A DNA stretch of 43,696 bases from Clostridia bacterium. Lineage in GTDB: Bacteria; Bacillota; Clostridia; Oscillospirales; Acutalibacteraceae. Position numbers and translations under genes: made by a program. The stretch lies in NCBI GenBank assembly GCA_017439545.1, contig JAFSIW010000065.1:1-43696 (forward strand), in the 5' to 3' direction. The notes beneath the pieces were generated by a model. That model did no database searches and was not told the origin of the DNA. It saw nothing but the letters and a program-made list of their open reading frames with translations. Shown one piece after another: positions 9,217-22,700 of the stretch (its first letter is position 1; the number at the start of each line of letters is the position of its first letter).

Positions 9217-9233
9217 ATCATCATTGTGTCAAA

Positions 9234-9272
9234 CAAAAAAAGAGAGTGCAGAGTTCACACTCTGTACTCTCT
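9234..9272 (-). terminator. Terminator hairpin closing the rpsR-side repeat array
   Basis: A 14 bp stem (9241-9254 with 9259-9272, one G-U) and loop TCAC. On the minus strand it is followed by a T-run (9234-9240 complement). It lies 18 bases past the third conserved box of the array. It may also weaken plus-strand transcription leaving tetR, although no T-run follows in that direction. Confidence 0.75.
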
Positions 9273-9490
9273 TACTCTTCCTAAACAGATTCGCTTTTGT
9301 TCTGCGCCAAAACCCGTATCAACAAAAGCTCGACGGACACACTCGTTGCCAAGCGTGGCGGGGGGAGGGTTTTGGATGCAGAAGTCGTCCCCCCCACCGA
9401 CGCCGGTCATAGTAAAGTTGGTTTGTGCAACCAAGGGGATTTTGGCGTATAACAAAAGCGAGATAAAATCATCCGCGTAGCGGATACCTT

Positions 9491-9532
9491 AAAAAAGGTG
9501 CCCTGCAATCAAAAATCGTTGCAAGACACCTT
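9491..9532 (-). terminator. Second terminator hairpin of the rpsR-side array
   Basis: Minus strand AAGGTGTCTTGCAA pairs with TTGCAGGGCACCTT (with wobbles), followed by TTTT. It matches the second hairpin of the ackA-side array at 22279. Confidence 0.75.
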
Positions 9533-9742
9533 ATTCATTGATTCAGCTAAAAACTGTTTCTTTTGTTCTGCGCCGTGTGAGGCGCACACAACCGTCCGTG
9601 CGGGAGGCGGGGGAGGGTTTTGGATGCAGAAACTGTTTTCTCCGACCCGATGGCGTACATTGGTACGTCGAGAGGGAGGAAAAACAGTTAAAAGCGAATT
9701 TGTAATCATCCGCGAAGCGGATACCTTAAACAGACATCGCAC

Positions 9743-9784
9743 CAAAACAAAAGTTGTGCGCAAAGGTGATCCTTCGCACACAAC
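9743..9784 (-). terminator. Terminator of the rpsF-ssb-rpsR operon
   Basis: Minus strand GTTGTGTGCGAAGG pairs with CCTTTGCGCACAAC around ATCA, then TTTTGTTTT. It begins 48 bases after the rpsR stop, just past the first conserved box. It has the same shape as the hairpins after pnp and ackA. Confidence 0.85.
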
Positions 9785-9832
9785 TCATCTTTAAAACGTA
9801 TTCGCTTTGTTCTGCGCCAAAACCCGTATCAA

Positions 9833-16670: not shown

Positions 16671-16673
16671 TTG

Positions 16674-16763
16674 TAGTCGGAGTTTTGGCGTAGAACAAAG
16701 CGAATAAAGTTATAATGATTGGTTGTGTGCAAAGTTTTAACTTTGCACACAACTTTTGTTTTC
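16674..16763 (+). repeat. Single-box terminator repeat after pnp
   Basis: Starts 3 bp after the pnp stop. An 89 bp unit (16674-16762) matches 21971-22059 after ackA at 88 positions; the one difference is at 16732/22029. It has a conserved box GGCGTAGAACAAAGCG, then AATAAAGTTATAATGATT, then a perfect hairpin GTTGTGTGCAAAGT with TTTTGTTTT. It serves as the pnp terminator. Confidence 0.9.
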
Positions 16764-16774
16764 GTGCAATCAAA

Positions 16775-16800
16775 AAGGCACTTGGTTGACCAAGTGCCTT
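16775..16800 (-). terminator. Terminator of the trkA-comF-glpQ-like operon
   Basis: AAGGCACTTGG pairs with CCAAGTGCCTT around TTGA. On the minus strand TTTTTG follows. It lies 6 bp past the phosphodiesterase stop. Confidence 0.88.
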
Positions 16801-16805
16801 ATCGT

Positions 16806-17534
16806 TTATTCCAGAATATTTGAGGTGATATAATCCACGCCCATTTCCATCAAGGCTCGGGCGGTTTTCTCATCGTCGCAGGTCCAACAGTTGACCGCAA
16901 CTCCCATTTCGTGGGCGTACGCCACCCGTTCCCGATTGAGAGCGCCCATATGAATATCCAAATCCATATGCAACTGTGCCAGCTCGTCTACCCGCTGTTT
17001 TGACCACTCACCGGTTAAAAACTGCATGGACTGTTCGGGCAACAAGCGCCGCAAAATCAGCAGATTTTCAAAGCAAAAGGAAATAAAGACCGTATCGTCC
17101 AAATAGCCATGCTCCCCAATGACCGCCGCGATCTTACGTAAATTCTCCTCGGTCATGGGATTTTTCAGCTCCAGCACCGCTTTCTTTCGGTAGTAGCGGC
17201 AAATAGAGATGTAATCCTGTAACGCGGGAATGGTCAGATCGCTTCGGGTAGTCTTACGGGGAATGGCGTGAGCATCGTACAGCCGCACCTTGGCAAGTTC
17301 TTCCATGGTGCTTTGTTCCACGTTCATGTCAATGGGAGAAACCCGCCCCGTTCGGTCGTCGTGGATCACGGCAAACCCACCGTCGGCGGTAACGTGCACG
17401 TCGGTTTCAATGCCCCAATAGGAGCGGTTGCCTGCGGCCACAAAGGCGGCGCAGGTGTTTTCGGTTTCCAGTCCGCTGACGCCCCGATGGGCGATCATAC
17501 GGGCGGTTTTGTTCTGTAATTCAACCGTGTTCAT
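16806..17534 (-). CDS. Glycerophosphodiester phosphodiesterase
   Basis: 242 residues with the GDPD signature I-A-H-R-G (His16, Arg17), G-x-E-x-E-N-T, I-E-T-D-V-H-V-T-A-D-G-x-F and V-I-H-D-D, the metal- and substrate-binding residues. It hydrolyses glycerophosphodiesters to sn-glycerol 3-phosphate and an alcohol. No signal peptide is seen, so a cytoplasmic UgpQ-like role is likely. AGGAG lies 7 bases before ATG 17534. The start overlaps the comF stop by 14 bp; it is the third gene of trkA-comF-GDPD. Confidence 0.92.
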   Translation of the reverse strand: MNTVELQNKTARMIAHRGVSGLETENTCAAFVAAGNRSYWGIETDVHVTADGGFAVIHDDRTGRVSPIDMNVEQSTMEELAKVRLYDAHAIPRKTTRSDLTIPALQDYISICRYYRKKAVLELKNPMTEENLRKIAAVIGEHGYLDDTVFISFCFENLLILRRLLPEQSMQFLTGEWSKQRVDELAQLHMDLDIHMGALNRERVAYAHEMGVAVNCWTCDDEKTARALMEMGVDYITSNILE

Positions 17535-21960: not shown

Positions 21961-21970
21961 TCAGTTGAAA

Positions 21971-22059
21971 TAGTCGGAGTTTTGGCGTAGAACAAAGCGA
22001 ATAAAGTTATAATGATTGGTTGTGTGCAGAGTTTTAACTTTGCACACAACTTTTGTTTT
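21971..22059 (+). repeat. Box-terminator repeat after ackA (copy of the pnp unit)
   Basis: An 89 bp unit with one difference from 16674-16762. The box GGCGTAGAACAAAGCG is followed by a hairpin (GTTGTGTGC arm) and TTTTGTTTTT. It functions as the ackA terminator and starts the array that continues to 22555. Confidence 0.9.
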
Positions 22060-22555
22060 TTTGCACAAACTGTTTAAGGTATCCGCTTTGCGGATGAATT
22101 TTATATTCGCTTTTAGCCGTTTTTTCGGGATTCGACGTACCATCGTACGCCTATCATCCCGAAGAAAACGGCTTCTACATCCAAACCTCCTCTCTCGTTG
22201 CTCGAACGGTACTCTATATGAATCGGCAACCATTTTGGCGTAGAACAAAAGAAACGATTTTAGAGAAATCAATTGATTAGGTGTCTTGCAACAACTTTGG
22301 TTGCGGGACACCTTTTTTATGGTGCAAATCCTTGCGGATTTGGATTTATACGTTTCTTTTTAGCCGTTTTTCCTCCCTCTCGACGTACCATCGTACGCCT
22401 ATCATCCCGAAGAAAACGGCTTCTACATCCAAACCTCCTCTCTCGTTGCTCGATCGGTACTCTATATGAATCGGCAACCCTTTTGGCGTAGAACAAAGCG
22501 AATAAAGTTATCATGATTGGTTGTGTGCGAAGTTTCGGCTTTGCACACAAACGCA
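22060..22555 (+). repeat. ackA-side array: two palindromic inserts and two further boxes
   Basis: After the first box come an ATCCGCTTTGCGGAT hairpin (22080-22094), a palindrome P1 (22115-22173), a second box (about 22233-22252) with its own terminator (22279-22318), a second insert with AAATCCTTGCGGATTT and palindrome P2 (22362-22421), and a third box (about 22481-22503) with a hairpin at 22521-22550. Positions 22132-22249 and 22380-22497 are direct repeats of 118 bp with two differences. The third hairpin lacks a T-run. No gene is credible in 21961-22749. Confidence 0.85.
22279..22318 (+). terminator. Second terminator of the ackA-side array
   Basis: AGGTGTCTTGCAAC pairs with GTTGCGGGACACCT (one G-U), loop of 7, then TTTTTT. 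It is the counterpart of the hairpin at 9491-9532. Confidence 0.85.
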
Positions 22556-22671
22556 ATAAAAGCCCTTCACCCCATGCCCACCAAAACCTTGCAAGCCAGA
22601 ATATACATGATTTCATCTTTTTTGGCCTGGGATTTTGGTGTATTTTAAACCCTCTTTCTGCCGCCAAACCA

Positions 22672-22700
22672 TTGACATAATCCCTTAATGATGATAAAAT
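22672..22700 (+). promoter_or_regulatory. Promoter of the pilus operon
   Basis: TTGACA (22672-22677), 17-base spacer, TAAAAT (22695-22700), about 50 bp before the first gene. There is no other clear promoter before 31.5 kb, so all seven genes may be one transcript. Confidence 0.8.

Follow-up and report, generated by a model that had tools for sequence, protein, structure and literature searches.

The window, which is the whole 43,696-nucleotide stretch analysed (contig JAFSIW010000065.1 of the Clostridia bacterium assembly GCA_017439545.1), carries repeated units downstream of rpsR, ackA and pnp (Table 1). The rpsR array occupies positions 9236-9832 of the minus strand, with boxes at 9804-9818, 9560-9574 and 9294-9308; the ackA array occupies 21970-22551 of the plus strand, with boxes at 21984-21998, 22237-22251 and 22485-22499. 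These are the parallel three-box arrays of the preliminary description, and their parts follow one another in the order given there. The single-box copy that it placed after pnp is also present (box at 16687-16701) and is a truncated element, nearly identical to ackA unit 1. The orientation of the units had been described as always following that of the upstream gene, which holds for the main units in the window and does not hold for an inverted fragment within rpsR unit 2.

Allowing for 2 or fewer mismatches, the box sequence GGCGYAGAACAAARG has eight matches in the window, compared with 0.45 ± 0.61 in 100 shuffles (largest 2). The eighth is the inverted fragment. In the genome to which the window belongs (G000, a 1.88-Mb draft) there are 18 exact 13-base boxes and none of the reversed pattern. 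One of these 18 reads as being within a coding sequence, and the same stretch is present in the sister species G002.

The P3 hairpins listed in Table 1 were called as terminator-like. Five terminator-like sites were called in the rpsR stretch and three in the ackA stretch, against 1.1 and 0.7, respectively, in shuffled sequence. Two hairpins are missing from these calls, namely that of rpsR unit 2 and, at 22519-22551, the last of the ackA array, which has no T-run. Some units are mosaic. The second rpsR unit is a chimera with a B-type 5' half, an A-type small hairpin and a foreign insert replacing the long palindrome, P5, and the second halves of ackA units 1 and 2 are nearly identical.

Table 1. 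Positions of the elements and of their parts in the window. R1 is the full-unit model, built from five units, and R2 is the P5 model, built from 25 sequences.
Feature	Position	Strand	Basis
Complete element, rpsR unit 1: P1 5' arm carrying the box, P2, P3, P4, P5, P1 3' arm	9610-9832	-	R1 248.3 bits (one of the model's five source units)
P3 of rpsR unit 1, terminator-like hairpin with T-rich tail	9751-9786	-	Terminator calling
P4 of rpsR unit 1, small ATCCGC/GCGGAT hairpin	9708-9722	-	Sequence reading
P5 long palindrome and P1 3' arm, rpsR unit 1	9614-9694	-	R2 89.5 bits (in the model's own set)
Chimeric rpsR unit 2: box and hairpin of type B, small hairpin of type A, insert for P5, P1 3' arm	9374-9574	-	R1 41.2 bits
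Inverted box/P1 fragment in rpsR unit 2	9444-9458	+	Box scan
Partial rpsR unit 3 (left end): P1 5' arm carrying the box, then a different terminator-like hairpin	9236-9322	-	Sequence reading, terminator calling
ackA unit 1, complete type-A element	21970-22194	+	R1 235.9 bits (in the model's own set)
P3 terminator-like hairpin, ackA unit 1	22018-22051	+	Terminator calling
P5 and P1 3' arm, ackA unit 1	22110-22190	+	R2 92.6 bits (in the model's own set)
Complete ackA unit 2, type B	22223-22442	+	R1 114.9 bits
P3 terminator-like hairpin, ackA unit 2	22279-22313	+	Terminator calling
P5 and P1 3' arm, ackA unit 2	22357-22438	+	R2 85.8 bits (in the model's own set)
Partial ackA unit 3 (left end): box, then a hairpin lacking a T-run	22471-22551	+	R1 match 22471-22673, 39.9 bits
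Half element after pnp (left half): P1 5' arm carrying the box, P3 hairpin	16673-16763	+	R1 match 16673-16863, 73.5 bits

Structure of the element and paired sequence change

The box, the terminator hairpin, the small hairpin, P5 and the CATCC stretch are a single element of about 220 bp, since the parts of a unit pair with one another. The box had been taken for a conserved motif in its own right; instead it forms the 5' arm of P1, a stem with long-range pairing, and co-varies with its 3' partner, the CATCCAAAACC stretch. In P1, GGGTTTTGG-C-GCAGAA pairs with TTCTGC-AT-CCAAAACCC at the far end of the unit, leaving a C/AT internal loop. In the ackA array the CATCC stretch is CATCCAAACC, one A shorter than in the rpsR array. 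The second helix, P2, is formed by AAAGCGAAT and ATTCGCTTT, or in B-type units by AAAGAAACG and CGTTTCTTT, and has two hairpins inside it, the terminator-like P3 and the small P4. The long palindrome P5 follows P4 and has a nearly invariant tip, TCGnCGTA...TACGnCT. A protein-binding signal was considered for the box and rejected, because changes in the box are matched by changes in the CATCC arm, as in the box/partner variants GGCGCAGAA/TTCTGC, GGCGTAGAA/TTCTAC and GGCGAAAAA/TTTTTC.

The helices are kept while their sequences change. In five type-A units with 58 pairs, 99.0% of the cells are paired compared with 90.1 ± 1.1% when shuffled, there are 16 two-sided pair changes compared with 5.8 (reached in none of 500 shuffles), and slid controls are only 34-51% paired. 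Across 112 distinct copies of P5, 263 two-sided changes are found against 75.3 ± 6.7 in shuffles (0 of 500). For P1, 60 elements were entered into an arm-swap comparison and 49 used, 11 being dropped for want of an anchor; the arms pair with their own partners at 670 of 784 positions and with swapped partners at 499 ± 12.5 (0 of 5000). P1 arms therefore fit their own partner far better than those of other elements, and both arms change together. Arm copying, by way of a hairpin intermediate or a template switch, would explain this.

The mismatches that remain differ between the helices. As a control, 22 tRNA acceptor stems from the same loci have 15 G-U and 1 A-C mismatches in 154 cells, in a stem register chosen for the most pairs including G-U, which favours G-U somewhat. 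P1 has 22 G-U and 34 A-C in 784 cells, and the P1 arms of recent copies have 9 and 18 in 442. P5 has 62 G-U and 60 A-C in 2209 cells, 36 of the 62 being at one poorly kept pair, without which the ratio is 26:60. P3 has 8 G-U and no A-C in 70 cells. The excess of G-U over A-C that marks a structured RNA is thus absent from P1 and P5 and present in P3 alone. It seems that P1 and P5 are palindromes kept at the DNA level, because unlike tRNA stems they have no excess of G-U over A-C, and P3 behaves like an RNA hairpin, as expected of a terminator.

The outer arm of P1 differs between loci, which prompted the idea that it is the split stem of a host terminator. This was rejected for the window, where the arm travels with the element, since the pnp and ackA copies share one arm and the rpsR copy shares another with that at C5 elsewhere in the genome. 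The flanks of recent copies are complementary to each other at chance level (100 of 260 positions, against 99.6 shuffled).

Other forms of the element occur. At L078 (C47 of the own genome) and L102 (ackA of the sister species) a different repeat of about 110 bases (GCGTCGGAACAAGGCTACG...GGGGACCCCATT) is in the P5 tip, as if another element had entered or replaced the tip. Very short members of about 100-130 bases, in which P2 is a small hairpin or absent, are found at L085, L098 and L081. A diverged subfamily in both species (L080, L084, L095, L100, L101) has CACAGGA for the box, facing TCCTGC. Terminator-like hairpins made of the P1 arms only are present in genome G141, 5 bases after a stop codon (L349, position 2996, GGGGCTGTTGCAGTAAGTGCAACAGCCCC), and in G751 after ackA (L347, position 3053, GGGACTGTTGCATTAAAATGCAACAGCCCC). 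These solo hairpins may be deletion products, or may be the kind of terminator that gave rise to the element ends.

Copies in other genomes and their position relative to genes

Units of this one architecture are present in many copies. With the full-unit model at E < 1e-6, at least 26 matches are found in the own genome and at least 14 in its sister species, many with diverged boxes. The arrays are also seen in this independent assembly, where both the ackA and the rpsR ends carry two-box arrays. Three other genomes, G001, G003 and G004, have plain hairpin terminators directly after rpsR and ackA and are too diverged from the own genome to reveal the exact target. There is no R1 match in G003, and the best matches in G001 and G004 (E 0.0036 and 0.024) are on reading unlike the element. 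One weak P5 match in G001 (L107, about 1500-1580, E 0.0011) directly follows a stop codon and is perhaps a decayed member of small size.

When the inner parts of units are compared between the own genome and its sister species, two pairs, C40b/C189 (93% alike) and C47/C29 (92%), look like true counterparts. The inner parts are 74% alike at rpsR, 75-82% at ackA, 84% at hydA and 85% at gapA, and this identity is a coarse measure because units of different loci are 69 to 91% alike. The first ackA unit is type A in the own genome and type B in the sister species, and the two seem to hold different subfamilies at their rpsR and ackA ends. At the C40 gene end there is one unit in the sister species, and in the own genome there is that unit (93% alike) together with a different one on its gene side. 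The extra gene-side unit and the mixed types of neighbouring units suggest serial insertion as well as exchange. Recombination at the box, as first proposed for the multiplication of the units, can therefore be at most part of array growth, with neighbouring units often of different types. Five of the 19 element loci of the own genome (C22, C47, C56, C74 and C13) are less than 500 bases from a contig end, where 4.5% would be expected, so that copy numbers from the assemblies are lower bounds.

Beyond these species P5 is found patchily across the order. Its model has matches at E <= 0.001 in 56 of 398 genomes of the family (21 of 135 genera) and at E <= 1e-5 in 24 of 394 genomes of the order, from 12 of 169 genera and six families. 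A pattern scan of named genomes gave at least 119 stretches; the 80 listed come mainly from Oscillospiraceae, Ruminococcaceae and metagenome assemblies of unclassified Clostridia and include chance hits in other phyla, and R2 matches 66 of the 80 (73 matches). One exact P5-P1 pattern has no hits in viral contigs. The box is nearly confined to the genus: its 15-base form is present in 6 of 150 family genomes, and the five box-bearing genomes outside the genus have one box each, none of which is the element on reading. In other genera, too, units stand in tandem at a spacing of about 100-160 bases, in rows of up to three (L152, L154, L155). This is a family of terminator-site mini-elements spread over an order, and it is larger than first described. 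Judged by titles and the openings of abstracts, no paper listed by keyword searches of an open-licence literature collection describes it.

Near-identical copies with fixed ends are numerous in three genomes, G141, G752 (SIG583) and G751 (RGIG3036). From 37 left ends with the core motif in the stretches examined from them, the 26 copies with both ends were kept, and 11 for which no right end was recognised were dropped. These 26 are 207-239 bp and end in GGGGCTGTTGCATTAAG-C-GCAGACC and TCTGC-AT-CTTAATGCAACAGCCCC, or close to this. Their terminal inverted repeats have a 17-bp outer and a 5-bp inner arm, with the usual C/AT internal loop. In the three genomes there is no pair of element ends with 3 or fewer mismatches that encloses an ORF, and there are no autonomous copies among the loci examined; two long pairs are one stretch of L241 seen on both strands, consisting of a left end with unrelated sequence. 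None of the 26 has a direct repeat of 5 or more bases at its edges, and 4-base repeats are found in 3, compared with 1.5 with shuffled flanks. The 12 nucleotides to the left are 51% A and the 12 to the right 54% T, compared with 33% each at 28-40 nucleotides. Flanks that are A-rich on the left and T-rich on the right are what would be expected to remain around an intrinsic terminator.

The copies are found where genes end and hardly ever in a gap upstream of two genes. From 135 matches, 66 elements were hand-picked, leaving out recent copies, repeats and the inner units of arrays, and were placed against genes from a simple ORF picker. Convergent gaps hold 29, tandem gaps 29 (22 sense and 7 antisense) and a divergent gap 1; the other 7 are inside called ORFs (3) or cut (4). 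As background, 132 gaps of at least 50 bases in the same loci are 25 convergent, 60 tandem and 47 divergent. The divergent share is therefore 1 of 59 for the elements and 47 of 132 for the background (Fisher p = 4e-8). The 30 elements of the own genome and its sister species (10 convergent, 6 sense and 4 antisense tandem, 1 divergent, 9 other) do not show the bias by themselves, because their background of 40 gaps has only 6 divergent.

The 26 recent copies are 14 convergent, 9 tandem (3 sense and 6 antisense), 1 divergent, 1 within an ORF and 1 unclassified. By the preliminary description, many copies close to stop codons and in sense orientation would support a gene-end module. Many recent copies are 3-30 bases from a stop codon, and orientation is mixed. 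With nearly half of the 66 elements in convergent gaps and antisense copies in both sets, orientation with the upstream gene is not a rule of the family. One recent copy lies between two converging genes whose stop codons are 5 and 7 bases away, so that another terminator would not fit.

Probable mobility and origin of the element

The best explanation, to which we give a probability of about 0.7, is that the units belong to a MITE-like, non-autonomous transposable element, some 200-240 bp long, which replaces intrinsic terminators. Taken by itself, mobility with a preference for terminator sites is highly probable. The features of a MITE are present: the copies are short and numerous, have fixed ends and terminal inverted repeats, and, where read, have no transposase ORF. 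Each complete unit carries a terminator-like hairpin at which transcription is predicted to end. The earlier suggestion of a gene-end module resembling a small mobile element with its own terminator is supported.

The mover is rather likely to belong to the IS1182 family. Members of this family in staphylococci, TnSha1 and IS1272, are described as inserting into hairpins, several of which are terminators confirmed by RNA-seq, in both orientations, with part of the hairpin deleted, no target duplication and some targets reused (PMC4923244). For IS1272, replacement of inverted repeats and a form with a 25-bp tandem duplication of the left end are described (PMC5678879). In genome G161 (L378) there is a 1.92-kb IS with an IS1182-family transposase (NF033551, 315.5 bits; cut-off 270), and its end, GGGGCTGTCGCACTAAG, differs by one base from that on the left of a half element in G141. 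Each of the 26 recent copies has, at its better end, a sequence within 2-4 of 17 bases of this IS end. Among 49 P1 left arms compared with it over 16 bases, 28 are within 4, 1 is at 5 and 20 are at 7 or more. Further IS copies in G255 and G022 score 272 bits and 263 bits with NF033551, the latter just below the cut-off. The IS1182-type copies at L289 (G022) and L290 (G255) have GGGGCTGT-like ends and are flanked by an A-run and a T-run, and a second G255 copy (L297) has a 30-bp tandem duplication of its left end, as in the IS1272 form. In genome G007 a short remnant with a transposase fragment (PF13751, 23.5 bits) has the left end GGGACTGTCGCACTAAGCGAAG, and its continuation is the sequence that comes next in the element. 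At C5 of the own genome (L002, about 1456-1510) a gene end and the left element end are repeated in a 31-bp tandem duplication, likewise as in the IS1272 form.

PF13751, a domain that also occurs outside IS1182, was detected in 19 of the 56 genomes with the element and in 39 of 342 others (p = 6e-5, uncorrected for kinship and genome size and treating two draws of 398 genomes as the same). The other 37 element-bearing genomes are without it; it was not found in the own genome, in its sister species or in G141 with its many recent copies. Genome G161, which has the best-matching IS, has no P5 match in the family R2 search. The P1 ends of the own genome do not start with GGGGCTGT, being GGGTTTTGG, GGAGTTTTGG, GTAGATTTGG and others, and the copies in the window have diverged ends.

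In such a system the outer stem of P1 would be the terminal inverted repeat, read in trans by an IS1182-family transposase. Insertion would replace the stem-loop of the old terminator, whose A-run and T-run would remain on either side, with no target duplication. The P3 hairpin would then end transcription of the host gene, as might, among recent copies, the P1 stem followed by the T-run of the old terminator. Being itself a terminator hairpin, the element would be a target for more copies, and arrays would grow in this way, followed by exchange between units. P5 would be a palindrome acting at the DNA level, perhaps as a transposase site. With one genome per species, no empty site with the original terminator was seen at the same locus.

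The element shares with IS1272 and TnSha1 the terminator hairpin sites, both orientations, the lack of target duplication, the reuse of one target and the left-end tandem duplication (PMC4923244, PMC5678879), and its recent ends match an IS of that family. It differs in being about 220 bp and without transposase, in its internal P5 and P3, in its mixed arrays and in the ends found in the window. Pneumococcal RUP and SPRITE are among the MITEs described as short, folded and without transposase, with terminal inverted repeats, and as over-represented between convergent genes (PMC3049150). Here, in contrast, there is no target duplication of 5 or more bases, the positions are those of terminators with A-run and T-run flanks, and there is a multi-helix plan in which P5 is kept across six families with compensatory change. 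The pneumococcal BOX is likewise described as modular, with variable tandem arrays and predicted long-range folding (PMC3049150). Compared by description, the present arrays repeat whole units, not an inner module, and neighbours can be of different types. The closest filing is with MITEs that have IS1182-like ends and behaviour, with a mover and a replacement step that we infer.

A wider reading, which is possible and is held only tentatively, is that an order-wide superfamily of terminator-replacing mini-transposons turns over the terminators of its hosts while the palindrome arms are rewritten in concert. Each move would swap a host terminator for an element, which would then be both the terminator and the next target. 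A hairpin or cruciform stage in transposition or repair would let one arm serve as template for the other, and such copying would give strict Watson-Crick covariation without selection on RNA.

It is unlikely that the element is a single-strand DNA element moved by an HUH transposase (IS200/IS605 or a REP-associated Y1) that reads the P5 hairpin. This would agree with the lack of target duplication and with a conserved hairpin with a nearly invariant tip. REP and BIME elements, which are associated with REP-associated transposases, are also palindromes at gene 3' ends that form arrays, as the present units do. However, long terminal inverted repeats are not known to be a feature of IS200/IS605 elements, and the recent copies have them, with ends that match an IS1182-family IS; such repeats and the IS1182-like ends also set the element apart from REP and BIME.

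A conserved structured RNA, either a 3'-UTR element or a trans-acting RNA with its fold selected in transcripts, is quite improbable and was rejected as the main reading on the mismatch spectrum of P1 and P5 compared with tRNA. The covariation is strong, the folding energies of three units are low (z-scores -8.4 to -8.9) and P3 is RNA-like. However, real RNA helices tolerate G-U far above A-C, the T-run after P3 would halt transcription before P5 and the P1 3' arm, and orientation relative to genes varies. In addition, the window and eight related loci have no Rfam match at the gathering score; at E up to 1, two microRNA models match the rpsR array below threshold and none matches the ackA array.

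That the units do not move at all, and are ordinary terminators altered by tandem duplication, gene conversion and template-switch repair with mutual correction of the arms, is very unlikely: it would account for the mosaic rpsR unit 2, the near-identical second halves of ackA units 1 and 2, the left-end tandem repeats and the almost purely Watson-Crick covariation, but near-identical fixed-end copies at unrelated gene ends and a patchy presence in 21 of 135 genera of the family need dispersal.

If the reading as a terminator-replacing transposable element is true, many gut Clostridia have had gene terminators replaced by a parasitic element that does the same job, and the 3' ends of their genes are shaped by transposition. 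Strong covariation of helices is usually taken as proof of a functional RNA and here seems to be of DNA-level origin. The ratio of G-U to A-C mismatches is a simple discriminator between covariation selected in RNA and covariation at the DNA level.
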